Part shown: one piece after another, positions 41,714 through 58,086 of the stretch | Layout of the letters: each line of letters opens with the position of its first letter | Numbering within the stretch: position 1 is the stretch's first letter | Virus record (IMG/VR): IMGVR_UViG_3300030419_004954 | Coordinates: 1 to 64,000 of that record | Direction: 5' to 3' (one strand) | Length of the DNA stretch: 64,000 nucleotides | Source: a virus | Notes under the pieces: model-generated | Databases searched by the model: none | Told to the model about the DNA's origin: nothing | What the model saw: only the letters and a program-made list of their open reading frames with translations | Translations under genes and position numbers: made by a program

Positions 41714-42250
41714 ATGAGCAGTACAACATTAGAAATTATTCAGGGCCTTGCCCAAGCCGCTTCAAAAGCATACGATGGATCACACGATCCTCGTTATAAT
41801 GATGACGGCAAAGAAAGATCCGCCGGACTTGCAAGAGAAGAGGGGCACCCTCTTATTGACCGTCGCGTCATTGATGGATTTAAGGTTCGCTTCTCCGGAC
41901 CAAACATGATCATTACATACCAAAGCGAGATCAAACTGAAAGATGTTTATGCTGGTGGTTTTGAAAATGAGATCAATCGAAGAATAAATGAAATTAAAAA
42001 GTTTCTACAAAAAGAATATAAAGCCATTACAGGGAACACTGTTACACTTACAACAGATGGCGAGGCAAAGGTTCTAGTCCAATCTTCTTCTCGTGTGCAT
42101 TCTTGGGTTCAAGCAACCCAGTACTACAAAATTGGTAAAGTTGATGCCGAAGGTATCCTTCAGCCATCTGAGCCAAGTGTTCGTGAGATCACACGAAAGT
42201 TTCTTGATCAAGCATCAAAGAAACGCCCGACTAACGATACAAGGAAATAA
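41714..42250 (+). CDS. Uncharacterised protein before the terminase
   Basis: The 178-residue protein has a helical N-terminus (LEIIQGLAQAASKAYDGS), then a basic/acidic alpha-beta body with FKVRFSGPNMIITYQSEIKLKDV split over two strands, and FLQKEYKAITG. Immediately preceding the terminase large subunit, with a 1-base overlap (TAATG at 42250), is a usual place for a small terminase subunit or head-completion factor, but I see no DNA-binding helix-turn-helix or coiled coil characteristic of gp16. I leave it unnamed. Confidence 0.45.
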   Translation: MSSTTLEIIQGLAQAASKAYDGSHDPRYNDDGKERSAGLAREEGHPLIDRRVIDGFKVRFSGPNMIITYQSEIKLKDVYAGGFENEINRRINEIKKFLQKEYKAITGNTVTLTTDGEAKVLVQSSSRVHSWVQATQYYKIGKVDAEGILQPSEPSVREITRKFLDQASKKRPTNDTRK

Positions 42251-43833
42251 TGGGATTTGAGTTATCAAAGAAAGAAATTGTAAAAGAAATTGTAAAATCG
42301 GGTAAAGATCCGGTTTACTTTATTAATACTTATTGCCGCATTTCGCATCCTCAAAAGGGTCTCATAAAATTTGATACTTTTCCATACCAAGACGATCTTC
42401 TCCAAGATTTTAATGATTTCCGTTTCACGGTTATCTTAAAGGCCAGACAGTTAGGCATCTCAACGATTACTGCCGCCTACATTGTCTGGCTCATTTTGTT
42501 TCACCGCGATAAGAACGTAATGGTGCTTGCAACCAAGTTTGCAACCGCTGCGAACCTCGTAAAGAAAGTAAAGGCAATCATGAAGAATCTGCCTGACTGG
42601 ATTCGTATCACCGACATCGCAATCGACAATAGAACTTCGTTTGAGTTGTCTAATGGGTCTCAAATTAAAGCATCGTCCACCTCTGGAGATGCTGGACGTT
42701 CGGAGGCCCTTTCGCTCCTCGTGATTGACGAGGCTGCTTTCGTTGATGGCCTTGACGAACTTTGGACTGCTCTTTATCCCACACTATCAACAGGTGGTCG
42801 CTGTATCGCACTGAGCACACCCAATGGTGTCGGTAACTGGTTTCATAAAACCTATGTTGACGCTGTGGACAACCAAAATGATTTTAAATCCGTAAATCTT
42901 CCATGGGATGTTCATCCCGAAAGAGACATGGCTTGGTTCAGAAATGAGACAAAAAACATGTCCAAACGGCAAATTGCCCAAGAGCTTGAGTGCAACTTCA
43001 ACTCCTCCGGTGAAACTGTTTTGCAGTCAGAGGACATGGAATGGGCGAACTCCTGCGTCTGCGATCCTATTTACAAGACAGGGTTCGACCGTAACTTCTG
43101 GATTTGGGAGAAATACCAAGATGATTCTAAATATTTGCTTGTTGCTGACGTTGCTCGTGGTGATGGAGCAGATTATTCTGTTTTTCATATCATTAAATTG
43201 GAGACCATGGAAGTCGTCGCAGAATACCAAGGAAAACCAACGCTAGACCACTACTCAGATATTTTATTTGATGCTGGTCGAGAATATGGAAGTTGTCTTC
43301 TAGTCGTTGAGAATAACGGCATAGGAATATCGGTTCTTGAGAAACTCATAAACAAAGAGTATCCAAATCTTTATTATTCAATTAAGGGATCACACGAATA
43401 CATAGAACAACATAAAGCAGAGTATGCCTCAAACTCCGTTCCGGGATTTACTAACTCATCGAAGACAAGGCCGCTTATTGTGGCTAAAATGGAAGAGTAC
43501 ATAAGAAACAGACTAATTACTGTTAGATCTTCGCGACTTTTTCATGAATTTAAGACTTTTATCTGGCACAACGGGAGACCACAAGCAATGCGCTCGTACC
43601 ATGACGACTTGGTTATGTCCTTATCTATTGCTTGCTGGGTGCGAGATACAGCGATAGAAGTAGACCAGAGAGACGTTGCCTATAAAAAGGCAATGATGGA
43701 TGGTATGTTTTTAAATTCAACTAAAATGAATACTGCTATTAAAGGGCAAGAAGGATACGACCAATCCTTCGAAGACAAGTATCGCGAACAATTACAGCAA
43801 AAGAAAGACTTTCTTTGGATTTATAAGGGATAA
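42250..43833 (+). CDS. Terminase large subunit (gp17-like)
   Basis: The 527-residue protein has both halves of a packaging motor. The ATPase has an adenine-side QDDLLQDF, a modified Walker A LKARQLGIST near residue 65, Walker B LLVIDEAAFVD near 157 and the coupling motif ALSTPNG. The RNase H-like nuclease has VADVARGDGADYS (first Asp near 300), LVVENNGIG (Glu near 354) and YHDDLVMS (Asp near 452). It docks on the portal and pumps and cuts concatemeric DNA. It is a little shorter than T4 gp17. No intein or intron interrupts it, although terminases often carry one. The portal gene follows 3 bases later. Confidence 0.95.
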   Translation: MGFELSKKEIVKEIVKSGKDPVYFINTYCRISHPQKGLIKFDTFPYQDDLLQDFNDFRFTVILKARQLGISTITAAYIVWLILFHRDKNVMVLATKFATAANLVKKVKAIMKNLPDWIRITDIAIDNRTSFELSNGSQIKASSTSGDAGRSEALSLLVIDEAAFVDGLDELWTALYPTLSTGGRCIALSTPNGVGNWFHKTYVDAVDNQNDFKSVNLPWDVHPERDMAWFRNETKNMSKRQIAQELECNFNSSGETVLQSEDMEWANSCVCDPIYKTGFDRNFWIWEKYQDDSKYLLVADVARGDGADYSVFHIIKLETMEVVAEYQGKPTLDHYSDILFDAGREYGSCLLVVENNGIGISVLEKLINKEYPNLYYSIKGSHEYIEQHKAEYASNSVPGFTNSSKTRPLIVAKMEEYIRNRLITVRSSRLFHEFKTFIWHNGRPQAMRSYHDDLVMSLSIACWVRDTAIEVDQRDVAYKKAMMDGMFLNSTKMNTAIKGQEGYDQSFEDKYREQLQQKKDFLWIYKG

Positions 43834-43836
43834 ATA

Positions 43837-45795
43837 ATGGCTCCACGTAGAAAAATTAGAAATGGTAAGAACCCAAACAACCCTGAGAACGATTTATTTA
43901 AAGCGTTAACTCGTTTGTTTTCGGGACCAATAACCACGAGAAGAACAGAGACAGGCCGACAACTCAGACGCAGACACTTAGACAGATACGCAAGTCAGTT
44001 TAAGTCTGCAAGTGGTAAACAATTTAAGAAATTAGATTACAATACCCCAATGGCCCAACTGACGATTAACGCAATGGCCAACAGAGCCCGTACTGAACGG
44101 TACGTAGATTTTGATGAGATGGAGTATACTCCAGAAATAGCGTCTTCATTGGACATATACGCTGATGAAATGACTACACATTCGGCATTACAGCCAATGT
44201 TGAGGATAAATTGCTCTAATGACGAGATAAAATCGATATTAGATAACCTATATCACAATGTGCTAAACATAAATTACAATCTTTTCAGCTGGTGTCGAAC
44301 GATGTGTAAATACGGAGATCTGTTTTTATATATGGATATTGATGAAAAGATGGGCATACAAAACGTAATTGGTATACCTCCGCAAGAAGTTGAGAGATTA
44401 GAAGGCGAAGACCCAATGAATCCCAACTACGTTCAATATCAATGGAACTCAGCAGGTATGACCTTTGAGAACTGGCAAGTCGCCCACTTCCGAGTGCTTG
44501 GTAACGATCGGTTCCAACCATACGGAACTTCTGTCCTCGAACCCGCTCGTCGCATTTGGAGACAACTTACAATGCTTGAGGACGCAATGATGGCTTATCG
44601 TATCGTCCGAGCACCAGAAAGACGACTTTTTAAAATTGATGTTGGTAACATTGCTCCTGAAGATGTAGAGCAATACATGCAGAAGGTAATGACTCAGATG
44701 AAGCGTCATCAAGTCGTTGACCCAACAACTGGACGTGTCGATCTACGTTATAATCCTTTATCAGTTGAAGAAGATTACTTCATCCCCGTCCGTGGTGGTA
44801 CTGCCTCAGACATCACGAACCTCCCCGGCTCTTCATATAATGGCGGGATTGACGATGTGAAGTATCTCCGCGACAAATTATTTTCCGCGCTAAAAATTCC
44901 CCAATCTTATCTCTCGATGGGAGAAGGGGCAACCGAGGACAAAACGACCCTCGCTCAAAAAGATATTCGATTCGCAAGAACGATCCAAAGACTACAGCGT
45001 GTTGCTGTTTCAGAGTTGGAAAAGATTGGAATTATCCATCTGTTCACTCTTGGATTCCGTGGAGATGATTTACTTAACTTCAGTCTCTCCTTGAACAACC
45101 CATCAAAGATTGCAGAACTTCAAGAACTCGAACACTGGAAACAGAAATTCGACGTTGCAGGTGCTGCGACTGAAGGATTCTTTTCTAAGAGATGGCTTGC
45201 CGAACACATGTTCGGACTATCTGCCGAGGAGTTTGTGCGAAACCAAAGAGAACTGTTCTTCGATAAAAAATACGCTGCTGCTCTTGAAGCCGCAGGTCAA
45301 CCTGATGAAGAAGGCGCCGCCGCTGGTGGTGGAGGCAAGACTCCTGATCTTGGCGATGCAGGTGGTGGACTAGGCGATCTTGATCTAGGCGATGACGATA
45401 CACCCACAACACCTGAGCCTGATGCTGGTGCCGACGCTGGTGGCGGAGACGATGAAGAGCCGACTCTTCTCGCAGAGCCCCCCGCAAAAAGAGATGATGA
45501 TGCTCGACCGAAGAAACGAGGTCCATATAAAAGACACCAGAAGTCTTACGACAAAGGCGGTCGCACTAAGAGTTATAAAAACATGGCCACAAGTGGCGAA
45601 GTTCGCGGCTCAACCGCAAGAACAAAGTTCCCCGGATATCAAGGACCCGGAGGTCTTTATACGCTCGGTAAAGGAATAGTGGAGGAAAATTCACAAACCG
45701 AGGATTTGGAAGAGCAAAAACTATTTAACATTAGCAATGATGTAAAAACATTACTAGAAAGTTTAGCAAACAGGGAAGATGAGCATGAAACATAA
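43837..45795 (+). CDS. Portal protein (gp20-like)
   Basis: The 652-residue protein shows the T4 gp20 family features: RYVDFDEMEYTPEIASSLDIYADE, FSWCRTMCKYGDLFLYMDID, VAHFRVLGNDRFQPYG, APERRLFKIDVGN, and YFIPVRGG followed by KLFSALKIPQSYLS. Twelve copies would form the head vertex through which DNA enters. The last 150 or so residues are unusual: an Asp/Gly/Ala low-complexity stretch and a basic KKRGPYKRH segment follow the conserved core. A late start for the next gene lies in its last 17 bases. Confidence 0.95.
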   Translation: MAPRRKIRNGKNPNNPENDLFKALTRLFSGPITTRRTETGRQLRRRHLDRYASQFKSASGKQFKKLDYNTPMAQLTINAMANRARTERYVDFDEMEYTPEIASSLDIYADEMTTHSALQPMLRINCSNDEIKSILDNLYHNVLNINYNLFSWCRTMCKYGDLFLYMDIDEKMGIQNVIGIPPQEVERLEGEDPMNPNYVQYQWNSAGMTFENWQVAHFRVLGNDRFQPYGTSVLEPARRIWRQLTMLEDAMMAYRIVRAPERRLFKIDVGNIAPEDVEQYMQKVMTQMKRHQVVDPTTGRVDLRYNPLSVEEDYFIPVRGGTASDITNLPGSSYNGGIDDVKYLRDKLFSALKIPQSYLSMGEGATEDKTTLAQKDIRFARTIQRLQRVAVSELEKIGIIHLFTLGFRGDDLLNFSLSLNNPSKIAELQELEHWKQKFDVAGAATEGFFSKRWLAEHMFGLSAEEFVRNQRELFFDKKYAAALEAAGQPDEEGAAAGGGGKTPDLGDAGGGLGDLDLGDDDTPTTPEPDAGADAGGGDDEEPTLLAEPPAKRDDDARPKKRGPYKRHQKSYDKGGRTKSYKNMATSGEVRGSTARTKFPGYQGPGGLYTLGKGIVEENSQTEDLEEQKLFNISNDVKTLLESLANREDEHET

Positions 45796-46588
45796 TAAGA
45801 AAAGAAATACCGCTTTTCTTTACGAATGCTTGGTAAAAGAACTAACCAAAGCCGTCGTAAGAAACGATAACCAAACCAAGGAAAAATTGGTCGAAGTTTT
45901 AAAAGAAAATTTCAAAAATGGATCAATTCTAAAACGAGAATTAGACATTTACAATTCACTTTTAGAAGGCACCGGCGAAGCGGAATATTCTCGATCACTT
46001 CGAGTAATATATGAGATCAAAAAAGATTTTGATAATCTCGACAGAAAAGAAGTGTTCAATGCTCAGACTGGTCTAATAAAACAAATGAACGAATCATTTA
46101 ATTCAGCCATTTGGTCAAGCTTTCTTCCAAATTATAAAAACATAGCCACAGCAGGAATGTTTTTTAATCAAAATAAATTACCGGCAAAGAAGCGATTGTT
46201 AATTGAAAACCGAGTAGTGCAATTTCGTCAAGCTCGTTTGGTTGAATCCAAAATGGAGCATGTCGATAACTTAACATATAAAACATTTGTTAATAAGTTT
46301 AACAAGACTTATGGAGAACACTTGAGACCCGAACAAAGAGAGTTGCTCACGAACTTCATTATATCTTTTTCAGACAACGGTCTTGGGCTAAAGAGCTACA
46401 TTAACGAGGAGATCCATCGTCTTAGATCTTCTCTTCAAACTCTTAACGAAAGCATGCATAGCCAAAATGCCTCAAAAGTTGTTGAAAAACTCAATAGTTT
46501 TGGTGAAAGACAAATAGACGAACAAATGCTTAGGGATTTGTTTTACATTCAAGATTTAGTGCATGAGGTAACAAAAAATGGCGATTAA
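45779..46588 (+). CDS. Head-assembly-associated protein, unknown
   Basis: The 269-residue protein is highly helical and charged. It opens KHNKKRNTAFLYECLVKELTKA, a start I recognise from proteins between portal and protease genes in related phages. Position matches that of prohead core genes (gp67/gp68 region in T4), but the sequence is not recognisably any of these. It overlaps the portal gene by 17 bases and the next gene by 11 bases. AGGGA lies just before the ATG. Function is inferred only from position. Confidence 0.45.
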   Translation: MSMKHNKKRNTAFLYECLVKELTKAVVRNDNQTKEKLVEVLKENFKNGSILKRELDIYNSLLEGTGEAEYSRSLRVIYEIKKDFDNLDRKEVFNAQTGLIKQMNESFNSAIWSSFLPNYKNIATAGMFFNQNKLPAKKRLLIENRVVQFRQARLVESKMEHVDNLTYKTFVNKFNKTYGEHLRPEQRELLTNFIISFSDNGLGLKSYINEEIHRLRSSLQTLNESMHSQNASKVVEKLNSFGERQIDEQMLRDLFYIQDLVHEVTKNGD

Positions 46589-47201
46589 TGTTAAAATTGA
46601 TGGTGGCTTCGAACCCGTTATTCAAGATAACAGTGTTACTGTTAGAGTTGACTCGTCACCCTCTGTTGGAGTCAAGATCATTGACCCTTATCTTCACGAG
46701 ATAAAGTTTAAACTTAACATGCGTCGTTCAATGAATGGCGACCTTATGATCTTCGATCACCCAGACATTGATATTGTTTACATGATCGAGAAAAAGAAAA
46801 TCGTTACATTTGCAAAAGATTTGATGTCTGATATGACTTACGGGACATCCAGCAGACTTTTGGAAAGACTTAGTAAAAAAGGTCTTCTAGTGTATGAATC
46901 AATTCAGGGCGGTAACGTTTATGGTTCTCTTGAGGGCAAGCTTCAGGAAGCCACTGATGATGACGCCAAAGATAAATATGTTGGCTTAGTGCTAAACCAA
47001 ATCTCAGAATGGATCGAGACCGAAAGACCTTACTTCAAAGCAGCACAACAATATGATGATCTGCTTGATACTAACTTTGCTGATCCACCCGATGACGAAA
47101 CCACTCGACTGGGTAAAGTACCACAAGAGGTGGAAAAAGGATCAATGATGCAAAGCTCACTATTTGGACCATATTATTATGGAAGGTACGTGTACGAATG
47201 A
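46578..47201 (+). CDS. Head-region protein, unknown
   Basis: The 207-residue protein has a beta-rich start (VTVRVDSSPSVGVKIIDPY) and an alpha-beta body with FKLNMRRSMNGDLMIFDHPDID, MIEKKKIVTF and a helix LLERLSKKGLLVYESIQGG. It contains no named motif. It is embedded between portal and protease genes with overlaps on both sides (ATGA at 47198), so it probably takes part in prohead assembly. I do not know its role. Confidence 0.45.
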   Translation: MAINVKIDGGFEPVIQDNSVTVRVDSSPSVGVKIIDPYLHEIKFKLNMRRSMNGDLMIFDHPDIDIVYMIEKKKIVTFAKDLMSDMTYGTSSRLLERLSKKGLLVYESIQGGNVYGSLEGKLQEATDDDAKDKYVGLVLNQISEWIETERPYFKAAQQYDDLLDTNFADPPDDETTRLGKVPQEVEKGSMMQSSLFGPYYYGRYVYE

Positions 47202-47545
47202 ACGTAAATTTTTTACAACTTGATGTTGGTTGGTTGTGGTTTATTCTGGCTGCATACGGACTAACTCAAATTCTTGTATATAGCTCGATCTTTGCTCAGA
47301 TCAGACCTGCTAAAGATGCATACCGAGGATGGGGTAAAGTTTGGCATTGTCCTATGTGCATGGGATTTTGGGTGGGAGCGCTTTTGTTTACGCTAAACGG
47401 CTTCACAGAACTATTTACATTTGATTACACATTTGCTAATTTTTTAATTTGTGGATGGATTTCATCAGGAACATCGTATTTTATAAGCATGCTTGTGAAT
47501 GATGATGGTATTAAAATAAACAAAGGAGCGAAAAATGATGACTAA
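47198..47545 (+). CDS. Membrane protein, DUF1360-like
   Basis: The 115-residue protein has about three hydrophobic segments (residues about 11-33, 50-68 and 78-100). The second opens with HCPMCMGFWVG, the CxxC-x-GFW signature I associate with DUF1360 membrane proteins, which occur in Bacillus (YjcA) and many phages. Function is unknown. Its presence in the head-assembly block is odd but may be related to membrane-associated prohead assembly. A short frame starts inside its last 11 bases. Confidence 0.6.
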   Translation: MNVNFLQLDVGWLWFILAAYGLTQILVYSSIFAQIRPAKDAYRGWGKVWHCPMCMGFWVGALLFTLNGFTELFTFDYTFANFLICGWISSGTSYFISMLVNDDGIKINKGAKNDD

Positions 47546-47629: not shown

Positions 47630-48238
47630 ATGTCTAAAAGATTATTAACAGAATTTTATGAACTATGCCCCGATGGTATGTGTCCCGATCTTCTTACCGA
47701 AAGAGAGAAGAAAGAGATCGCCAACGGAGCTATGTATTTGACCGGTCGTATCCAAACTGCCGATAAGCAGAACGGAAACGGTCGTGTTTATCCTTACGAG
47801 GTTCTAAAGCGCGAGATAGACAATTATAAAAAAGTTGTTGAAGACAATCGTGCTTGTGGAGAACTCGACCACCCAGATGACTCAGTAGTCAATCTAAAGA
47901 ATGTGTCGCACATGGTTGTTGATTGCTGGTGGGAAGGAAAGGATGTTATGGGCAAGATGAAAATTCTTGACACCCCTTCTGGACAAACAGTCAAGGGGCT
48001 TATTAATTCTGGTGTAAAACTGGGGATCTCATCTCGTGGTCTCGGATCAGTAAGAGAAAGCATGGGCAAGACTGTCGTCGAAAGCGACTTTCAACTCATT
48101 TGCTTTGATATTGTTTCCGAACCTTCAACACCAGACGCTTTTGTTTATCCAGAGAATAAAGGCGGTTCCCCAATACGGATGCGAGAAAACAAAGAAAACA
48201 AGATCGACAATCTATTTACCAAGATCTTGGGAGATTAA
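47630..48238 (+). CDS. Prohead core protease (gp21-like)
   Basis: The 202-residue protein belongs to the T4 gp21/herpesvirus assemblin-like serine proteases. It has GRIQTADKQNGNGRVYP, a His in GELDHP (His81), the Ser in LGISSRGLGSV (Ser134/135) and FDIVSEPSTPDAFV (Asp160). It would cleave scaffold and capsid N-termini after Glu during head maturation. The likely substrates are encoded downstream at 56908 and 58111. The ATG at 47630 is preceded only by GAGAATACA, a weak ribosome site. The gene is followed without a gap by a small core-like gene. Confidence 0.92.
   Translation: MSKRLLTEFYELCPDGMCPDLLTEREKKEIANGAMYLTGRIQTADKQNGNGRVYPYEVLKREIDNYKKVVEDNRACGELDHPDDSVVNLKNVSHMVVDCWWEGKDVMGKMKILDTPSGQTVKGLINSGVKLGISSRGLGSVRESMGKTVVESDFQLICFDIVSEPSTPDAFVYPENKGGSPIRMRENKENKIDNLFTKILGD
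48212..48218 (+). promoter_or_regulatory. Possible late-promoter element (CTATTTA)
   Basis: AATCTATTTACCAAGAT lies in the last codons of the protease gene, 27 bases before the next start at 48239. The spacing equals that of the copies at 9528 and 48869, but it falls in coding sequence and could be chance. Confidence 0.3.
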
Positions 48239-48661
48239 ATGAACAAGAGCGAATTAAAAAAAGTTTTAAAACCATTGATTAAAGAGTGCATCAAAGAAGT
48301 AATGTTCGAGGATGGAACTCTTTCCTCTATTATTGCCGAAGTTATGAAAGGCACAAACGTTATGTCCGCTCAGCCAATAGTTGAGAGCAGACAAGTAACC
48401 CAGCCACAATCTCGACTGGAAACTGATGAGGAAGCAAAAGCGCGGTTGACCAACAAGAAAAGACAACTTATGGATTCAATCGGCAATGATGCTTATAATG
48501 GTATTAATCTCTTTGAGGGAACCACTCCAACCTCAGCTCAAACAAGTGGCCACAATCAAGGCGCACTTAGTGGAGTATCTCCCGGTGACCCCGGAGTGGA
48601 CATAAGCAACTTAATGAACAAGACATCAGCCATCTGGCAGAAGATGAACGAGAAAAAATAA
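48239..48661 (+). CDS. Small core-like protein, unknown
   Basis: The 140-residue protein starts MNKSELKKVLKPLIKECIKEV, an amphipathic helix like that at 41393, followed by Gln/Ser/Thr-rich sequence and a helical end (NLMNKTSAIWQKMNEKK). It lies between the protease and the bS21 gene with 0-1 base junctions. The location suggests an internal core or scaffold component that might be processed by the protease. There is no named domain. Confidence 0.45.
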   Translation: MNKSELKKVLKPLIKECIKEVMFEDGTLSSIIAEVMKGTNVMSAQPIVESRQVTQPQSRLETDEEAKARLTNKKRQLMDSIGNDAYNGINLFEGTTPTSAQTSGHNQGALSGVSPGDPGVDISNLMNKTSAIWQKMNEKK

Positions 48662-48867
48662 TGGGATACAACTACGAATACAAACTAAGAAAAGGTGAAT
48701 CAGTTGAGAGAGCCGTAAAGAAGTTTTCTAGAAAGTGTAAGAAGCTGGGCATCATCCAAGATGTTAGAGATAGACGGCACTACCAAAAACCTTCGGTCAA
48801 AAAAAGATTAGCCAAAAAAAGGGCTATCGCTCGTCATCGCAAAGAGATGGCGAAAAGACGCCGTTAA
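48661..48867 (+). CDS. Ribosomal protein bS21 homologue
   Basis: The 68-residue protein matches bacterial S21 in length and layout: GESVERAVKKFSRKCKKLGI, then DVRDRRHYQKPSVKKR and a strongly basic tail. Cellular S21 binds the 30S platform near the anti-Shine-Dalgarno region and helps initiation; phage copies have been reported from aquatic phages and can enter host ribosomes. The ATG overlaps the previous stop (TAATG), making it the last gene of the terminase-portal-protease run. A candidate late promoter begins 2 bases after it. Assignment is strong. Confidence 0.93.
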   Translation: MGYNYEYKLRKGESVERAVKKFSRKCKKLGIIQDVRDRRHYQKPSVKKRLAKKRAIARHRKEMAKRRR

Positions 48868-48895: not shown

Positions 48896-49315
48896 ATGGG
48901 TTATCAAAACATTTACACCGCCGGTCTAAACAATGTTGGATCATACGAGGTATCCGGTGTACCTTATGCAACTGGTAGTATTGATGCTAGTGGTGGCGTG
49001 TTGATTAACTTTCCCACTGTTACTCGATGGGTTGTTGTTCATTATTCTGCTTCAGACTCCGGAAATCCTGATTTGAAACTCGGCTTCAGCGAAAACGGTG
49101 TTGGCTCAGTAGAAGAAAATTACTTTTTCGCAATGAAGCCAAATACTACAAGTCCGCGTTTTGAACTCAAACTCACTGAGTTGGCTCTGTTTGGGGGTGA
49201 TGCCGGTGAACAAGGCGTCTCCGTAATGGCGGGGCTCACATACATACCTACATTAAGGCTCGATTCAATCGGCCCTTCAGGATCTAACTGGTCTGGTTCT
49301 ATCGGAGTAGGTTAA
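48896..49315 (+). CDS. Small virion-type protein ahead of the fibre block
   Basis: The 139-residue protein is Gly/Ser/Thr-rich and beta-like: YQNIYTAGLNNVGSYEVSG, RWVVVHYSASDSG, FELKLTELALFGG. The style fits a capsid decoration or fibre-attachment protein. It heads the fibre block behind a candidate late promoter and ATAGGAG. Its stop overlaps the next ATG by one base. I cannot choose between head and tail. Confidence 0.45.
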   Translation: MGYQNIYTAGLNNVGSYEVSGVPYATGSIDASGGVLINFPTVTRWVVVHYSASDSGNPDLKLGFSENGVGSVEENYFFAMKPNTTSPRFELKLTELALFGGDAGEQGVSVMAGLTYIPTLRLDSIGPSGSNWSGSIGVG

Positions 49316-49944
49316 TGGGTGAATTTGGATGGGCCTATATTACTTGCGACGATCAAGTTGGTAACGCCACTGGTCCAACAGGATCTCTTCAATTCCACCA
49401 TGCTGGACAAGAGATTACTGGTTCCGATTATTTGGTTTTCAAAACGGGATCATCACCTTTTTCACTTGATCTAACTGGTACACTAAACGTTAGTGGAACC
49501 ATTAATGCCGATATTATGAATATCGCGGTTACTAACAAAAACGTTATTAACCTTTCGGCTTCGGGTGATACAAAATTTGGAAACACCGTAAACGATAGTC
49601 ATGTATTCACAGGAAGCGTGTTTGTAACAGGCGGAGTAACCTTTAATTACTACAAGGTTACATCAGCAACATACGCAATTACGCCAACAGATTATATATT
49701 GGGCATATCTGGATCTGGTTACATAAGCCTAACTCTGCCCACATTCAGCTCATATAAAGGAAGATTCATAACTATCAAAGATGAATTTGACTTTTCTGGA
49801 TCTGGACGTCCCGCTATTCACCCAATCGCAATAACGGCATCCAGTGGCTTGTTAGACGGTAATGGTACTTACGAAATATCTAATGGTGACTTTGCTGCCG
49901 TTAACTTATACTCTGATGGTACTACTGGGTGGTTTGTAGTCTAA
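49315..49944 (+). CDS. Fibre-like protein, short, with shared C-terminal module
   Basis: The 209-residue protein has a short N-terminal part followed by LNVSGTINADIMNIAVTNK, SASGDTKFGN and HVFTGSVFVTGG, then a C-terminal knob-like domain (YILGISGSGYISLTLP ... YSDGTTGWFVV). The same order recurs in the 320-residue gene that follows. The N-V-SG-x-I-x-A and FGN-x2-x-D-x-H repeats are usual in phage fibre shafts. It probably trimerises as part of a tail or head fibre. Confidence 0.55.
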   Translation: MGEFGWAYITCDDQVGNATGPTGSLQFHHAGQEITGSDYLVFKTGSSPFSLDLTGTLNVSGTINADIMNIAVTNKNVINLSASGDTKFGNTVNDSHVFTGSVFVTGGVTFNYYKVTSATYAITPTDYILGISGSGYISLTLPTFSSYKGRFITIKDEFDFSGSGRPAIHPIAITASSGLLDGNGTYEISNGDFAAVNLYSDGTTGWFVV

Positions 49945-49962
49945 ATATTATAGGAGAAAATA

Positions 49963-50925
49963 ATGTCCTATAACCTATTGTCCGCCAGTGTTACAATGCC
50001 GACCACATATAACGGCGACACTGCTATTAATCTGAGCAATGTCTACATGAGTGGTTCGATCGCCGGTGACGGCACCGGACTAATAAATGTAAACCACACT
50101 TTACAATCTAACACAAGCCCCGGAAGAATACCATTCTTTGATACAACAGAAGCAGTAGGCCCTCTTGGTAACCAGTTTAATACAAGGGGAGACCGAAACT
50201 TTACATTTAACCGATCTAATGGTGTTATGGCTCTTAATGGGACAGCCTCGTTAAGTGCAATAACTCTTAATAGTGCTTCCAGCGAAGTTGCGGTAACAAC
50301 AAAATATCTTGCACTGAACTCTAATGATGAAGTTGTTCTAACTTCTTCGGTAACAACCGGAGGACCAGTTAGTTCGCTTCAGTTTAGTACGGGGCCAACA
50401 GCGCTGTCTGGTTCTCCAATGATGACGTTTGATAATTCCAAGAACCTGTTGGCCTTAACTGGCTCAATAGAAGTATCGGGGTCTATAACAGCACATGAAT
50501 TAAACATTGTTGTAATCAATGAGAGAAAAATAAATCTTGATATCTCCGGTTCAACTATATTCGGTGATTCCTTGGACGATACTCACCAGTACACTGGGAG
50601 CATTTTGGTCAATGGAACGATTGTCAGAAGCCGTGTATCTGTAACTTCTAGCCCTTTTTCGATAGGTGCGACAAATTATTATGTTGGAGTTCGATCTGAT
50701 ACCATTGGTGCTGCCAGTACGATTAATCTCCCTGTGGCTAACACTTTACAGAATGGACAATCTCTGATTATAAAAGATGAAGGCGGATCTGCTCAAAGTT
50801 ACAATATTAAAATAACAGCCTCAGCAGCAGATTTAATTGATGGACAGTCAGAAATCTTTATAGAATCGCCATATGGTTCGGTGAACCTGTATACTGACGG
50901 ATCTAGTAAATATTTCATCTACTAG
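49963..50925 (+). CDS. Fibre-like protein with the same C-terminal module
   Basis: The 320-residue protein contains SIAGDGTGLINVNH, a motif common in aquatic phage fibres, and a C-terminal 160 or so residues collinear with the previous gene: IEVSGSITAHELNIVVINE, SGSTIFGDSLDDTHQYTGSI split over two strands, then YYVGVRSDT and VNLYTDGSSKYFIY. The two genes are diverged duplicates of one fibre module with different N-terminal parts. ATAGGAG precedes the ATG. It is a likely receptor-contact or fibre-shaft component. Confidence 0.6.
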   Translation: MSYNLLSASVTMPTTYNGDTAINLSNVYMSGSIAGDGTGLINVNHTLQSNTSPGRIPFFDTTEAVGPLGNQFNTRGDRNFTFNRSNGVMALNGTASLSAITLNSASSEVAVTTKYLALNSNDEVVLTSSVTTGGPVSSLQFSTGPTALSGSPMMTFDNSKNLLALTGSIEVSGSITAHELNIVVINERKINLDISGSTIFGDSLDDTHQYTGSILVNGTIVRSRVSVTSSPFSIGATNYYVGVRSDTIGAASTINLPVANTLQNGQSLIIKDEGGSAQSYNIKITASAADLIDGQSEIFIESPYGSVNLYTDGSSKYFIY

Positions 50926-50961
50926 CGCGTCGATTACAAGTTGGTTCCTCTAATTATAGTA

Positions 50962-51020
50962 GCGCCAAAGATGTTTGCGGATCCCGTATTCGTCGGTATC
51001 TTACGCCATGGCGCGTTTTT
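50962..51020 (+). terminator. Structured element/terminator before the 727-residue fibre gene
   Basis: GCGCCA (50962-50967) pairs with TGGCGC (51009-51014) and, inside it, AAGAT (50968-50972) with ATCTT (50998-51002), enclosing a GC-rich loop. GTTTTTA follows at once. It could be a rho-independent terminator separating the short fibre genes from the next one, or a structured 5' leader. The inner CGCCATGGCG palindrome offers an alternative fold. Outer and inner stems are separated on the right side by ACGCCA. Confidence 0.45.
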
Positions 51021-51036
51021 ATGGAGGATATAAATT

Positions 51037-53220
51037 ATGGCTTATAAATTTCAAGTTGGTGTAGCCCAACTCTCGGGTAACTTAACCCAAGAGGGCGCAC
51101 TAACTGCTGAGGGACTTGCGTCTCTCGACGGTGGTATTGACGTTAATGGTTCAAACTTCACCGTTTCAACCGCTGGTGCTCTTAGTGCTGCCGGTCTTGC
51201 TAACCTCGATGGTGGTATCGAAGTTGATAATGGTGGTAATAAATTCACTGTTTCTACTGCTGGTGCTGTTGTTGCGGAAGGCTCCGTTTCTGGTGCTGCG
51301 GGTACATTTGATACTCTTGCTGGTACTTCTTTAGCACTTCAAAGTGGTGGTATTACTGCTGCTGGTGCAATTGCTGGTGCAACTACAATTGCTGCAAGTG
51401 GTCTTGCTAACCTTGACGGTGGTATCGAAGTTGACAATGGTGGTAACAAATTCACTGTTTCAACTGCTGGTGCTGTTGTTGCTGAAAGTTCTATATCTGG
51501 TGCTGCTGGTACATTTGATGCTCTTGCTGGTACTTCGTTGGCTCTTCAAAGTGGTGGTATTACTGCTGCGGGTGCTATCGCTGGTGCAACCACAATTACT
51601 GCAACTGGTTTAGTTTCATCTTCTGCTGCTCTTAATGGACTTTCATTAGACATTAATAGTGCTGCAAGCGTTTCTAGTGCTGGTGCTGCAAGCTTTGCTA
51701 GTGCAAATCTTAACGCTGGTGGTATTACTAATGCTGGTTCTATTGTTGGTGCAACCACAATTTCTGGTTCTTCTACCATTTCTGGTCTTGAATTAGACAT
51801 TGAAAAGAGCGCGAACATTGCTCAAGCGGCTGATATTGGAGGCAAACTTACTGTTGTAGGTGTTTCCGATCTCGATGGTGGTATTGATGTTAATGGTGGT
51901 AACTTCGCTGTTAATGCTTCTGGTGAAATTACTGCTTCACCATCTGGTTCTATCACCGATCTCTATGTAGGTGATGATGCTCAAATTGCTGGTACTGCTA
52001 CTATCGAAGGTGCTTTCCGTGCAGATGCTGCTGCTACTTTTGCTAGCACAGTTGCTGTAAACGGTCTTTCTAACCTTGATGGTGGTATTGAGATTGATAA
52101 CAGTGGTAACAAATTTACTGTTTCTACTGCTGGTGCTGTTATGGCCGCTGCTCTTGCTAACCTTGATGGTGGTATTGAGGTAGATAATGGTGGTAACAAA
52201 TTTACTGTTTCTACTGCTGGTGCTGTTATGGCTGTTGGTGCAATTTCATCTTCTGCTGCTCTTGAAGGTCTCTCGTTAGATATTAATAGTGCTGCAAGTG
52301 TTAGCTCTGCTGGTGCTGCAAGCTTTGCTAGTGCAAATCTTAACTCTGGTGGTATTACTAATGCTGGTGCTATTGTTGGTGCGGCTGCGGTTTCTGGTTC
52401 TGGTGTTTTCAGTATGTCTGCTATCGATAATGATGGTGTTTTAAACAACGCTGGTGCTGCTAACATTGTAGGTAAACTTACTGTTACTGCTGTTTCTGAT
52501 CTCGATGGTGGTATTGATGTTAATGGTGGTAACTTCGCTGTTTCGACTGCCGGTAATATTACTGCTTGTCCATCTGGTTCTATTACTGATCTTCTTGTTG
52601 GTGATGATCTTCAGGTTGTTGGCGATTCTCGTTTTGACGGCGATGTTGCCTTAATAAGTTCCACTACTGCATCATTCGGTCTTCATATTATGAATAGTGT
52701 AGGTCTTGTTGTAGGTTCTACTGGTCAATTCCAAGTTGATCCATCAAACGGTGACATTTCTACCTCTGGTGATGTAACTGGTTCTGCCTTTAACTTCGGT
52801 AAAGGTGCTGATTTCAAAATCGCTCAAAGCCTCTTACCAGATCGTACTGGTGCGCTTGATCTTGGTAGCTCTGCGCTTCCTTATCGAGCAGTTTACGCTG
52901 ATACCTTCATTGGTAACATCGCATTTGATACTCAAACCGTAACTGACTTCGGTCCAGTTGAATCGGCTTCTGATATCGTTTACGTTAACATGGCCTCAAC
53001 CGGTCTTACTCTTGAGCTCCCAACTGGTTCTGCCGGTAAGGTACTCAGAATTAAGATGAGCGGTGAAAGACCATTCCAAATTTCTGGTGCTGCTGGTACT
53101 GGTGATACCGTATTTGATCAACCTGCTGATTCTATACTCGTAATGATGGAAGCACTTGGTGCTGCTATGACTTGTGTGTACTCTGGTTCTGCTGGTTCCG
53201 GTAAGTGGCACATCATCTAA
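51037..53220 (+). CDS. Repeat-rich fibre protein, highly expressed codon use
   Basis: The 727-residue protein is built from imperfect repeats of (G/A)LANLDGGIEVDNGGNKFTV and ITAAGAIAGATTI, giving a Gly/Ala-rich beta-helical shaft, and ends in a non-repetitive head (LDLGSSALPYRAVYADTF ... WHII). Repeats are two adjacent 69-residue units (residues 53-190) and a longer duplicated block (about residues 194-312 and 404-522). Codons are strongly biased to GCT, GGT and CTT like the major capsid gene, unlike the flanking fibre genes. GGAGG is 9 bases before the ATG and a strong terminator follows. It is probably an abundant fibre, tail or head. Confidence 0.65.
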   Translation: MAYKFQVGVAQLSGNLTQEGALTAEGLASLDGGIDVNGSNFTVSTAGALSAAGLANLDGGIEVDNGGNKFTVSTAGAVVAEGSVSGAAGTFDTLAGTSLALQSGGITAAGAIAGATTIAASGLANLDGGIEVDNGGNKFTVSTAGAVVAESSISGAAGTFDALAGTSLALQSGGITAAGAIAGATTITATGLVSSSAALNGLSLDINSAASVSSAGAASFASANLNAGGITNAGSIVGATTISGSSTISGLELDIEKSANIAQAADIGGKLTVVGVSDLDGGIDVNGGNFAVNASGEITASPSGSITDLYVGDDAQIAGTATIEGAFRADAAATFASTVAVNGLSNLDGGIEIDNSGNKFTVSTAGAVMAAALANLDGGIEVDNGGNKFTVSTAGAVMAVGAISSSAALEGLSLDINSAASVSSAGAASFASANLNSGGITNAGAIVGAAAVSGSGVFSMSAIDNDGVLNNAGAANIVGKLTVTAVSDLDGGIDVNGGNFAVSTAGNITACPSGSITDLLVGDDLQVVGDSRFDGDVALISSTTASFGLHIMNSVGLVVGSTGQFQVDPSNGDISTSGDVTGSAFNFGKGADFKIAQSLLPDRTGALDLGSSALPYRAVYADTFIGNIAFDTQTVTDFGPVESASDIVYVNMASTGLTLELPTGSAGKVLRIKMSGERPFQISGAAGTGDTVFDQPADSILVMMEALGAAMTCVYSGSAGSGKWHII
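51193..51606 (+). repeat. Two tandem 207-base repeats
   Basis: Units 51193-51399 and 51400-51606 encode nearly identical 69-residue segments differing at a handful of residues (for example GSV/SSI and FDT/FDA). Synonymous differences are visible, so the duplication is not brand new or has been corrected only in part. Further partial copies begin near 52066 and 52150. Confidence 0.85.
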
Positions 53221-53254
53221 TCTTCGGATTGGATTATTGTCCTATACTTTATGT

Positions 53255-53284
53255 GGAGGTTGCCTTCGGGCAACCTCCCTTTTT
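53255..53284 (+). terminator. Strong rho-independent terminator after the 727-residue fibre gene
   Basis: A perfect 10-base stem GGAGGTTGCC / GGCAACCTCC with a TTCG tetraloop is followed by CTTTTTATT. It lies 35 bases after the stop codon. Confidence 0.93.
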
Positions 53285-53324
53285 ATTATCAAAAGCCTAA
53301 TTATGGATAGCACGAGGTAACGAA

Positions 53325-54395
53325 ATGGCTTTTAATTTTTCAATTGGTGGACAAATCATTGGTGACCTGTCTGGATCTGATGATTCGGATAGAAACACAG
53401 TCATAGATTTTGAAGAAGATTACATTGGATTTGTAACCAGCGGATCAACCATATTAAGCATATCAGGCAGCGATGTATATTTAGCAAATGGTTCAAATTT
53501 ATATTTAGACGGAGGATCAAATCTTTATTTTGATTCAACCCCAACCCCCGCTTCGGTTTTTATAAGCGAGGTTGGCGATGGTTCTAATTCTTTAAACATT
53601 GATGCAAATAATGTTTTATATCTTACGGCTGACGAAAGCGTAAGAGTAATGAACAACAGTTCAACAAAAGTTAAATTTGACTTTAGTAATGATGTTGCTG
53701 AAGTTGAGATGCCTATTTCATCGTCTCAGTCAATCTCCGCATCAATACTCCATCTTCAAGAAGGTATTAGTCTCGGAGGACAAAGTGTTCTTGATAGCCA
53801 AGCTAGCCTTTCTGTTGGAAGCATTACCTTAGTTGATCAGAGCGGGCCAGTATATCAACTCCCAGATGCTGATGGAACTAGTGGTCAAGTTATCATGACC
53901 GATGGTTCTGGTAATCTAACTTTTTCAAATGTCTCCGGAGCAAGCGGAGGCACCAGTCAGTTTTTTCAAGGCCATGTTGAGATTGATACTACAGCAAAGC
54001 CTGTTAACTTTCACAATGTTGTTTCAATTGGCGGCAATGCCCCAGAAAATATAAAAAGTTGGTTTATTGCACCCTTTACTGGTCAAATAAATAAAGTTAT
54101 TCTCTCTGTTAAAGCAAATAATTTTTCTACATCAAACCACGGGACCATTACAGTTTCCATCTACAAGAATCAATCAAATTTTAATTCTGCAACATCTATT
54201 GCAGTAGCTGCTGACGATTTCACACAAACAGTTAACAACTTAGGAAGCGGCAACACCGATGTCAACACAGGTATTTTTAATACCAATGTGTCCATACAAG
54301 AGGGCGACCTTATTCAAATAAAAGTAGGAAAATCAACAGGCACGTCTGGGGATACCAACGCTGCCGTCGTAACACTTAGGTTGACTGAACAATAA
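53325..54395 (+). CDS. Fibre-like protein
   Basis: The 356-residue protein begins FNFSIGGQIIGDLSGSDDSD and continues with short strand repeats (SGSDVYLANGSNLYLDGGSN), a middle with LQEGISLGGQSVLDSQ, and a C-terminal 150 residues that look like a compact beta domain (NHGTITVSIYKNQSN ... VVTLRLTEQ). The repeats and Gly/Ser content are typical of phage fibres. Codon use is ordinary, unlike the gene before it. ACGAGG precedes the ATG. It follows a strong terminator, so it should have its own promoter, which I did not recognise. Confidence 0.55.
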   Translation: MAFNFSIGGQIIGDLSGSDDSDRNTVIDFEEDYIGFVTSGSTILSISGSDVYLANGSNLYLDGGSNLYFDSTPTPASVFISEVGDGSNSLNIDANNVLYLTADESVRVMNNSSTKVKFDFSNDVAEVEMPISSSQSISASILHLQEGISLGGQSVLDSQASLSVGSITLVDQSGPVYQLPDADGTSGQVIMTDGSGNLTFSNVSGASGGTSQFFQGHVEIDTTAKPVNFHNVVSIGGNAPENIKSWFIAPFTGQINKVILSVKANNFSTSNHGTITVSIYKNQSNFNSATSIAVAADDFTQTVNNLGSGNTDVNTGIFNTNVSIQEGDLIQIKVGKSTGTSGDTNAAVVTLRLTEQ

Positions 54396-54426
54396 CACAA
54401 CAAATTAGTTATAACGAGGATAAAAA

Positions 54427-56838
54427 ATGTCATATAATATTTTTAGCAAGAGGGCTGCCTTTCAGGGGACCACAAAAACCGCTGATGGTGATATAGTATC
54501 TGGTACTATTGAATACATGGTTGATAACCATTCAAACCAGACTATTGATGGACAAAAGACCTTTACTGATCTATCGGCTAGTAATATTTCAATTGGTGAG
54601 AGGATTTCTCACACAGGAGATAGTGATACAAGAATACAGTTTGGCACAGATAATATTGCTTTTATGGCTGACGGCGGAACTCAAATATTTACAGTTTATG
54701 GTAACCTAAATCCTGATCGAGTACAAGTTAACACTGGAAACCTTGTTATTGCTACTGGTAATATAGGGATTGGGGTCACTGTACCAACTTTTGAACTTGA
54801 GGTCGATGGTAATGTCTCTGGTTCCGGAACATTCCATAACGTTGGTGCTGCAACCTTTGGTAATAACTTAAGCGTCACTGGGACAATATCTGGTAACGGA
54901 TCTGGTCTTACAAATGTTGGTTTGGCTGGAAACCTATTGGCTGAAAGTATAATCGGTTCTGTTAGCGGTTCTCAAATCAGCGCATCAAACGGTCTTTCTA
55001 CAAGCGGCAACAATTTGGTTGTGCAAGTGAGTGGAACGGCATCTGGTCTTGTTTCTGAGACAAATGGTATTAAAATAGATTTAACTGGACTCGGAACGGT
55101 AGCGTACTCCGATAACGATCACATACTCATAAGTTCCTCCGCCGGTAACAAGAAGATGCAACTGGGAACCCTTGAATCAGGGTTCGACAGTCTTGCGGCA
55201 GGGCAAGTAACATCAGGGAGATTTGATACAGCTCGACTTCCCACAACTATCAGCGGGATTAGTTTCTTAACATCCTCCGTTATTTCTGCCTCGACCTTTC
55301 ATGGAAACGGAGAGAACCTAACTGGTATTTCCGGAGCACCCACTCCCGGAGGGTCCAATACACAAGTTCAGTTTAATGATGATGGTGATCTCGCAGGTGA
55401 TGCACAATTATTCTTCCTGACCGGATCAAACACATTGGCGACGACTGCGCTATCAGCATCAGGAGATCTTTCAGGATCCTCACTTCGTATTTTGAACTCT
55501 ATTTTTACCGGAGGCAATACTTTCTTGGACAACAACGGAAATGTATTTGCATCAAGCATATCTGGTTCTGGAACAATTCATGTGGTTGGAAGCGCATCAT
55601 TTGGTAATGATGTATCAATCACGGGTGCTTTCTATGGTGACGGTAGACAACTAACGGGGCTACCAATAGCCAACGCTGCTGCTAATGCTGTTGTAACAGT
55701 TAACAATGCAACAACTAAAACAGTAGATTCTAATTCAAACTTTACATACGATGGTTCGGATGCCGTCGTTACAAGTGGTGATGTAAAGGCAACAAACCTT
55801 TCGGCCTCCTCTGACCTTAAAGCAGGTGGTAATCTTGTAATTGGTGTCGCCGCTACAACTCTATCAGCAACCGAACTTGGTGTGCTTGATGGTGTAACAG
55901 CAGGAACAGCCGCCGCCAGCAAAGCGATGGTTCTTGATTCAAATGCAGATATAACAGGATTTAGAAAATTAATTTCTGCAACTAATGGCGCTTCTGTTCT
56001 GGAGATAACCTCTTCCGTAGGAAAAATCTCCATAGCAAGTGAGGCCATGGCTATCAGAAATGTAGCCAATACAGCAGTTTTCAATGTTGCTGTTACTGAT
56101 GGAGATATAACTAGTGCTGGCTCTGTTCAAGCGGCTTCTCTTTCTGCCTCTGCCGACATTCAAGCCGGAGGACACATAACAGGCTCTGGGGACTTGGTTT
56201 TTGCTGGTCCAACGTCGAAAATACATTTTGATCCCGCAGGGTCCAGTGCTACCAACGGCCCCTTCATTTCAACGAGTAATCTCACTACTTTAATGATTGA
56301 TGGTGATAGCATATTGAACATGCAAGCCGATACTAATATTAGATTGAGAGTTGCTGGTGGTAGCTCGGCAACACACGATATGAGAGTGGATATTACAGAA
56401 ACACATTTCTCCTCAAGTGTTGACCTATCTTCCTCGGCGCTCCACTTTGCGGATAGCCCGTCAGCAGTGATTACATCCGGAGGGAATACTTTCCTTGATA
56501 ATAACGGAAATATCTTCACCGGCGGTATAACCATGCAAGCTGACGCTGATGTAGCTCTCAACTTCAACAATAACCAAATCTCCGGCTCTGGTCACATTTC
56601 CGGTTCATCATTTTATTTTGAAGATTCAATAAACCTTAGTGGAAATCCAATCATAACCGGAGACGGAAACGCTTCTTTTGGACAATTGACCTGTTTTGTT
56701 GACGCCAAGGGCAGTACCAATCTTCCAACCGACAATAGTAGGGCAACATTTTATGTTGATGAATCAGCAAATAAATTCTTTGTTTATGTAAAATATTCTG
56801 GTGGAGCAGTGAAATCTGGCTCTATCGACCTCACATAA
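54427..56838 (+). CDS. Long fibre/spike-like protein
   Basis: The 803-residue protein has the patterns of long tail-fibre shafts: NIGIGVTVPTFELEVDGN (the NIGIGTTSP-type repeat), several (G/N)G-x2-L-T-(N/G) motifs such as SGNGSGLTNV, HGNGENLTGI and YGDGRQLTGL, and a duplicated GGNTFLDNNGN block near residues 362 and 685. A T-x-LSATELGVLDGVTAG segment, frequent in fibre proteins, lies near residue 478. There is no C-terminal S74 intramolecular chaperone, which many proteins with NIGIG repeats have. It probably forms a receptor-binding fibre. Confidence 0.6.
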   Translation: MSYNIFSKRAAFQGTTKTADGDIVSGTIEYMVDNHSNQTIDGQKTFTDLSASNISIGERISHTGDSDTRIQFGTDNIAFMADGGTQIFTVYGNLNPDRVQVNTGNLVIATGNIGIGVTVPTFELEVDGNVSGSGTFHNVGAATFGNNLSVTGTISGNGSGLTNVGLAGNLLAESIIGSVSGSQISASNGLSTSGNNLVVQVSGTASGLVSETNGIKIDLTGLGTVAYSDNDHILISSSAGNKKMQLGTLESGFDSLAAGQVTSGRFDTARLPTTISGISFLTSSVISASTFHGNGENLTGISGAPTPGGSNTQVQFNDDGDLAGDAQLFFLTGSNTLATTALSASGDLSGSSLRILNSIFTGGNTFLDNNGNVFASSISGSGTIHVVGSASFGNDVSITGAFYGDGRQLTGLPIANAAANAVVTVNNATTKTVDSNSNFTYDGSDAVVTSGDVKATNLSASSDLKAGGNLVIGVAATTLSATELGVLDGVTAGTAAASKAMVLDSNADITGFRKLISATNGASVLEITSSVGKISIASEAMAIRNVANTAVFNVAVTDGDITSAGSVQAASLSASADIQAGGHITGSGDLVFAGPTSKIHFDPAGSSATNGPFISTSNLTTLMIDGDSILNMQADTNIRLRVAGGSSATHDMRVDITETHFSSSVDLSSSALHFADSPSAVITSGGNTFLDNNGNIFTGGITMQADADVALNFNNNQISGSGHISGSSFYFEDSINLSGNPIITGDGNASFGQLTCFVDAKGSTNLPTDNSRATFYVDESANKFFVYVKYSGGAVKSGSIDLT

Positions 56839-56907: not shown

Positions 56908-58086
56908 ATGTCTTCAATGTTAGAACAAGCAATTGTTGATGCCGCCGCACTTCGCGACGCTGCTTTAAAAAATGCTGAACAGGCTATTATAGAAAAATAC
57001 GCCCCACAAATAAAAGATGCCGTAGAGTCGTTACTTGAAGGAACGACGGGGGATCTTAGTGTTGGGTCTACTGTTCGAGAAATTTCAACGGGTGCTATTG
57101 GCACAATTAGAGAAATTGATGAAGATGGCGTACAAGTTGAAGGCCAAGACGGTGGTGTATTTCTTGCTGAAGCAGGAAACCTAGAAGAGACACAGTTAAT
57201 TAATGAAGAAGAAATGAGTTTGGGCTCAAGTCCCCAACCAATGCAAGTTAATGCACCATTGGGCGCATCACCAGAAAGTATTGTAAATCCTAACGCTGAG
57301 GTCAGCGCAGAATTTGAATTTAACTTTAATCCGGGTGATTTCTTTGATCTCGACCTTGATCAAGTGGCTGCTGCCGCTGAAGAAAACCCCACCTCGGATG
57401 GTGAACAACAAGAAAGCACCGAAGACCTCCTTGATGACCTCGGAGCAGAAGAAGAAGGCGATGCATTAGGTGATCTAAATCTCACAGAGATGGTCGCTGA
57501 ATTAGCCAAAACCCTCTTAGAAGAAGAGGAAGTGATCGAAGAAGAACTTGTTGTTGATATGGCCGCTGATAAATTGGGTTTTTTCACAACCAATGAAACA
57601 GAGGTTGGATACCAACAAGATCGTCAACTTGCTCAAATGGAAGATACCAAATACAAAGAAGAAAACGAAGCACTTCTTAAGAGAGTATCTGAACTTCAAG
57701 AATCCTTAGATAAAAGAACTGAGGATGCTACTAAACTTTTAGGAGTTGTTGAACAACTCAAAACTACGTTAGATGAAGTACTTGCCTCAAATGCAAGGCT
57801 TATATATTCTAATAAAACTTTAAGCGATGCCTCCCTGAATGAGCGACAAAAATCTAAAATTGTTGAAGCCATCGCTCAGGCAAAATCTGCTGAAGAAGCA
57901 AAAACTCTTCATGAGACTCTTACTGCTACAGTGGGTTCCTCTCAAAGTAAAGGACCACAATCACTGAGCGAGTCTGTAAACAGAAGATCTAACCTCTCAG
58001 CCATTATGCCTCGGCGCAAAGAAAAAGTGGTTAACGAGTCCATGTCCTTTGCTGACCGAATGAAAAAACTCGCTGGCATTAACTAA
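56908..58086 (+). CDS. Prohead scaffold-like protein (gp22-like role)
   Basis: The 392-residue protein is acidic and helical. It opens with AIVDAAALRDAALKNAEQAI, has a Glu/Asp-rich middle (residues about 170-215), a coiled coil (EENEALLKRVSELQESLDKR) and a C-terminal half with LASNARLIYSNKTLSDASLN and QKSKIVEAIAQAKSAEEAKT. The N-ARL-x-Y-x-N and LNERQK-x-KIVEA parts resemble the core scaffold of T4-like phages, which is digested by the prohead protease. It sits 24 bases before the major capsid gene, the classic place for gp22. Identity is inferred from position and composition plus these motifs. Confidence 0.7.
   Translation: MSSMLEQAIVDAAALRDAALKNAEQAIIEKYAPQIKDAVESLLEGTTGDLSVGSTVREISTGAIGTIREIDEDGVQVEGQDGGVFLAEAGNLEETQLINEEEMSLGSSPQPMQVNAPLGASPESIVNPNAEVSAEFEFNFNPGDFFDLDLDQVAAAAEENPTSDGEQQESTEDLLDDLGAEEEGDALGDLNLTEMVAELAKTLLEEEEVIEEELVVDMAADKLGFFTTNETEVGYQQDRQLAQMEDTKYKEENEALLKRVSELQESLDKRTEDATKLLGVVEQLKTTLDEVLASNARLIYSNKTLSDASLNERQKSKIVEAIAQAKSAEEAKTLHETLTATVGSSQSKGPQSLSESVNRRSNLSAIMPRRKEKVVNESMSFADRMKKLAGIN

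Follow-up and report, generated by a model that had tools for sequence, protein, structure and literature searches.

Why does a phage carry, among the genes that build its head, what looks like a gene for a ribosomal protein? No ribosomal protein is encoded by viruses more often than bS21, and what phages use it for is not settled. The window analysed here, from an uncultured T4-like phage (the whole stretch of 64,000 nt, nearly all of a fragmentary 64,439-base IMG/VR record classed as linear), holds an intact, ATG-start open reading frame at 48661-48867 on the + strand that encodes a 68-aa protein, MGYNYEYKLRKGESVERAVKKFSRKCKKLGIIQDVRDRRHYQKPSVKKRLAKKRAIARHRKEMAKRRR. An earlier note on this DNA had read the protein as a bS21 on the basis of its length and core motifs, and had proposed that it is swapped into host ribosomes late in infection.

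The first question is whether the protein is bS21. It matches Pfam PF01165 (Ribosomal_S21) over residues 9-60 (E 7.5e-15; 54.8 bits, cut-off 27) and TIGR00030 (30S ribosomal protein S21) with 44.7 bits (cut-off 28.95), its match in PHROGs is PHROG 21469, 'ribosomal protein S21', and 36 of 36 matches to sequences of solved structures are bS21 or organellar bS21. Against an HMM made from bacterial bS21s only, the protein scores 59.8 bits, vs. a best score of 9.7 bits among 5000 shuffles of the same composition; because the shuffles score so far below it, the match cannot be put down to the Lys/Arg-rich composition, and a chance basic ORF is ruled out. The core bS21 residues F22, G30, R38, Y41, K43, P44, and S45 are present, comprising the aromatic-x-KP-S/T motif and the central F and G. 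An AlphaFold2 model (pLDDT 83, pTM 0.37) has helices at residues 15-29 and 46-67, and 15 of 15 Foldseek matches to the model are ribosome entries, with E. coli at the top, the best E being weak (0.033) and the two-helix fold poorly discriminating. We conclude that 48661-48867 is a genuine bS21 gene, as first read: Pfam, NCBIfam, PHROGs, PDB sequences, and the shuffle control all confirm it.

The second question is what the gene's setting says of its use. The gene lies in a run of + strand genes that includes the following:

42250-43833, + strand: terminase large subunit, TerL (PF03237, E 1.9e-12; phrog_2, E 7.9e-52)
43837-45795, + strand: T4-like portal protein, gp20 (PF07230, E 1.6e-77)
45779-46588, + strand: 269-aa conserved head-block gene, syntenic in relatives
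46578-47201, + strand: 207-aa conserved head-block gene, syntenic in relatives
47198-47545, + strand: 115-aa conserved head-block gene, syntenic in relatives
47630-48238, + strand: prohead core protein serine protease, T4 gp21-like, Peptidase S77 (PF03420, E 6.8e-31; phrog_207)
48239-48661, + strand: 140-aa conserved gene directly upstream of S21, with a homologue adjoining S21 in 80 of 80 S21-seeded relatives; no family match in Pfam or PHROGs
48661-48867, + strand: bS21, 68 aa (Pfam, NCBIfam, PHROGs, PDB sequences, shuffle control)
48896-49315, + strand: 139-aa gene with its own AGGAG site, 28 nt past S21, with which the gene run goes on beyond S21
56908-58086, + strand: 392-aa gene immediately upstream of the capsid gene, called scaffold-like from its position, and downstream of S21 in several relatives; no family match in Pfam or PHROGs
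58111-59940, + strand: major head protein, gp23-like (phrog_138, E 3.6e-72)

S21 had been described as closing the terminase-portal-protease operon. It does end the TerL-to-protease block, but the gene run goes on past it: the next gene, with its AGGAG site, follows after 28 nt, no terminator-like site was found on the + strand after S21, and the gene for the major head protein comes further along on that strand. S21 thus stands inside the head region, not at its end. The start of S21 and the stop of the 140-aa gene share bases (TAATG), and the Shine-Dalgarno (SD) site of S21 is weak (-3.0 kcal/mol, among the weaker sites of the window phage), which together suggest that S21 is translationally coupled to the 140-aa gene. 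Gene order and this putative coupling point to late expression of S21 with the head genes; matches to the T4 late-promoter consensus are not clearly enriched in the window (7 vs. 3.1 expected), the head cluster contains none of them, and no late promoter was identified.

Three further features of the region are recorded here. Between S21 and the scaffold-like and capsid genes, at 48896-56838, lie ~8 kb of repeat-rich proteins encoded on the same strand (with motifs such as LDGGIEVDNGGNKFTVSTAG); because the corresponding gap between S21 and the scaffold-like gene is only ~0.5 kb in L084 (PBOB01000007.1), a 24-kb contig of the same phage family, this segment has the look of a variable site of insertion, where fibre or decoration proteins may be encoded. 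A 1049-aa protein with SbcC-like and metallophosphoesterase matches (phrog_77, phrog_1649) is encoded at 36346-39495, ahead of the head block. No tRNAs were found, whether in the window or at the loci of six long relatives.

To what extent is this arrangement shared? A scan of IMG/VR seeded with S21 found 103 relatives, of which 80 were kept, and in these the order and strand of the head-block genes, the small upstream gene, and S21 are preserved wherever the contig reaches. Because this sample had been picked by S21, the scan was repeated with the prohead protease as seed: S21 is present, downstream and on the same strand, in every one of the 55 protease-seeded contigs whose downstream sequence is 2 kb or longer. 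When presence of S21 is mapped on a tree of 85 contigs built from the protease, 6 changes are required. The window's side of that tree comprises 23 rows, each with S21, but most of them derive from the S21-seeded scan, and the unbiased S21 frequency is the protease-seeded 55/55. The results indicate that phage S21, which the earlier note had called rare, is not so in the window's clade; its placement beside the prohead genes, which the note had considered informative, proves to be so and by synteny extends to the clade as a whole. We conclude that S21 is a core, fixed head-block gene of this clade and not an occasional acquisition. Synteny across tens of independent contigs also rules out contamination or assembly artefact.

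The gene is also under strong purifying selection: dN/dS among close relatives is ~0.04-0.06, values that are approximate because many dS values are near saturation. The closest bacterial S21s (from Desulfobacterota, Bdellovibrionota, and Clostridia) are ~48-52% identical to the window S21, the top matches from Pseudomonadota are mostly 36-41% identical, and none of the bacterial S21s found exceeds ~56% (partial match) or 52% (most of the protein). In a tree, phage S21s, that of Pelagibacter phage HTVC008M included, separate from the sampled bacterial S21s (support 91, from few columns). The low bacterial identity and the separation of phage from bacterial sequences give no sign of a recent pick-up of S21 from a host. 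That the gene is a functionless passenger from a bacterium, or an artefact of assembly, is therefore extremely improbable: bS21 is a cellular family, but here it occupies the same place in tens of independent contigs with dN/dS of ~0.05, occurs in a cultured phage, and has no close bacterial match, so that conservation and selection both contradict such an origin.

The same comparison bears on the host. The proposal that the phylogeny of this S21 would suggest one came to nothing, with a best bacterial match of ~50% and phage and bacterial sequences lying apart, and a first genome scan with phage-only peptides returned no matches. A gapless alignment to 7jil_z, extended by two residues, places A57 of the window S21 at Tyr54 of the F. 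johnsoniae protein; in Flavobacterium, bS21 controls access to the anti-SD, in work that also discusses phage bS21 (McNutt 2023, PMC9976891). The alanine in place of the Bacteroidia tyrosine, together with strong SD usage, argues against a Bacteroidia host and leaves Bacteroidia-type occlusion of the anti-SD unsupported for the window S21. Across the S21-seeded set (81 loci), no aromatic residue occurs at this position. Elsewhere, some S21-bearing relatives (L202, L224, L238, and many of L276-L324) have Y or F at this position, and most of them have SD-rich gene starts. The L084 contig is binned in an Acidiferrobacteraceae MAG that also has an S21 of its own; this binning, which is weak evidence, is either the only hint of a host or a binning error.

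The window S21 belongs to an already published kind of head-cluster phage bS21, within which the same-strand layout is standard for its clade. In the cultured Microcystis phage Mel-JY01 (PP395634), as in the window, an annotated RpsU S21 follows the protease on the same strand, with one small gene between them, and both have the order TerL - portal - small genes - protease - small gene - S21; Mel-JY01 differs in having a divergent bS21 sequence and a portal and protease only ~42-44% identical to those of the window, and is a separate lineage in the protease tree. Bacteroidetes jumbo phages likewise have bS21 within the TerL/portal/protease/capsid block, where it is transcribed with the structural genes, and among 900 published phages, 310 have a prohead protease close to bS21 (Chen 2022, PMC9723584). 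In the five clades of that study, however, bS21 is on the opposite strand to the structural genes and has an aromatic residue at F. johnsoniae Tyr54, whereas S21 is on the same strand in the window, in its S21-seeded relatives, and in the 55 protease-seeded contigs, and the window phage has A57 and strong SD sites. HTVC008M, a marine phage, shares with the window a T4-like phage bS21, but one of another sequence type, closest to the bS21 of its own SAR11 host (PMC6375957), and its gene adjoins CobS, Hsp20, and clamp-loader genes and not head genes. Flavobacterium phage immuto (MW353176) shares the TerL-portal-protease-capsid block, with a portal (39.8% identical) among the nearest in the phage collection, but is without bS21, and head genes of the immuto type are without SD sites.

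What, then, would a phage gain from bS21 made with its head proteins? Packaging of bS21 into virions has been raised as a possibility (Chen 2022, PMC9723584), and a basic protein that is packaged or active in prohead assembly, with the bS21 fold reflecting origin only, would fit a gene fixed between the prohead protease and capsid genes, on their strand and tightly coupled to a small head-block gene; a packaged copy could even act on ribosomes at the next infection. We regard such a role as very unlikely, since the conserved positions of the window S21 are those of ribosomal bS21, HTVC008M has its bS21 outside the head block, and immuto-type relatives build heads without S21. A ribosomal role has precedent. 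The bS21 of HTVC008M enters E. coli 70S ribosomes, and replacement of host bS21 by a phage copy has been proposed (Mizuno 2019, PMC6375957); late co-expression and a ribosome swap have also been hypothesized for the head-block bS21 of Bacteroidetes phages (Chen 2022, PMC9723584). The swap hypothesis is thus already in print, and from this published work on other phages we infer that the window S21 would be incorporated into ribosomes; a late swap in its clade is plausible.

E. coli ribosomes with HTVC008M bS21 have in vitro activity of only ~5% (PMC6375957), from which it follows that such a swap could inhibit, and not favour, translation. One reading is host shut-off, in which phage bS21 enters ribosomes and lowers initiation in general, so that host translation falls late with no selection of phage mRNAs. 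Charge changes that phage S21s share where the sampled bacterial S21s are conserved are in line with this, but the HTVC008M result comes from a heterologous ribosome and may reflect incompatibility, and production alongside head proteins would be a poor time for a general block, virion proteins being needed in bulk; we consider shut-off unlikely.

The charge changes emerge from a comparison of 183 divergent phage S21s with 26 bacterial S21s. Residues common to bacterial bS21 (F22, R38, Y/F41, K43, P44, S45) are largely kept across the phage set, and four other positions distinguish the two groups: position 27 is K in 97-100% of phage sequences and E, A, or S in bacteria; position 37 is mostly D/E in phages vs. 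K/R in bacteria; position 39 is mostly R/K in phages vs. E in bacteria; and position 42 is rarely E in phages vs. E in all bacterial rows. The changes are common to phages of different lineages. Phage-specific changes have been described in the N-terminal helix of Bacteroidetes-phage bS21 (Chen 2022, PMC9723584); the present ones (such as K27), which are absent from the sampled bacterial sequences, are possibly new, and the signature is a lead only, because the bacterial sequences are few and skewed towards those close to the query.

These observations bear on a reading in which phage bS21 merely keeps the 30S stocked at a time when host genes are not expressed, without selecting among mRNAs. 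Plain replacement accords with the strong purifying selection and with retention of the core residues, and bS21 belongs to those ribosomal proteins that are bound loosely and can be exchanged (PMC6375957); however, replacement does not require shared phage changes at conserved bacterial positions, as seen in this small and biased bacterial sample. SD sites that are strong throughout the phage add that no special selectivity would be needed. Supply of this kind seems to us unlikely.

SD usage in the window phage is indeed strong, with strong sites at 31 of 43 starts vs. 8 of 180 internal ATGs. The earlier note had placed strong AGGAG sites on late mRNAs; the strong sites are there, but they are general across genes and not confined to late ones, and that of S21 itself is weak, so that as an argument for favoured late mRNAs they carry little weight. 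Contigs with S21 almost all have SD-rich starts, with SD sites at 73% of starts in the S21-seeded set and at 43-47% elsewhere, vs. 6-10% at internal ATGs, whereas immuto-type contigs (L253-L275, L162), which are without S21, have head-region SD sites at 5% of starts vs. 19% of internal ATGs; S21-less contigs outside the immuto type have mixed SD usage. With near-copies removed, 58 contigs have both S21 and SD usage, 16 have neither, 6 have SD usage without S21, and 5 have S21 without SD usage. Presence of S21 is suggestively associated with SD usage in this T4-like superclade; with only 3 independent pairs on supported branches of the protease tree, the association is not statistically established, and it is most simply read as following host type. 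The SD-depleted contigs without S21 are possibly a new observation. Since some related lineages without S21 keep strong SD sites, S21 is not indispensable for SD-led head genes.

Taken together, we favour, with some reserve, the reading in which the window gene encodes a working bS21 that is co-made with head proteins, enters the host 30S, and supports SD-led initiation on phage mRNAs. Phage bS21 would be made together with the head proteins, would enter the host 30S by replacing or topping up loosely held host bS21, and the resulting 30S would support initiation on SD-bearing phage mRNAs while virion proteins are being made in a burst. Family scores, kept core residues, dN/dS, synteny, the start/stop overlap, and the position of S21 in Mel-JY01 favour this role; a search of the literature found no demonstration that a phage bS21 prefers phage mRNAs. 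A more ambitious version, which we hold to be unlikely, is one in which S21 would be an ancient component of the head operon, inherited vertically and lost together with SD-led initiation, and in which K27, D/E37, R39, and the lack of E42 would retune the anti-SD-side platform of the 30S to give a late preference for strong-SD virion mRNAs.

With S21 as a core head-block gene that shares its strand with the virion genes and lies beside SD-rich genes, the window's clade is useful for testing whether phages build specialised ribosomes, and the S21-less, SD-depleted immuto-type relatives provide its natural comparison.
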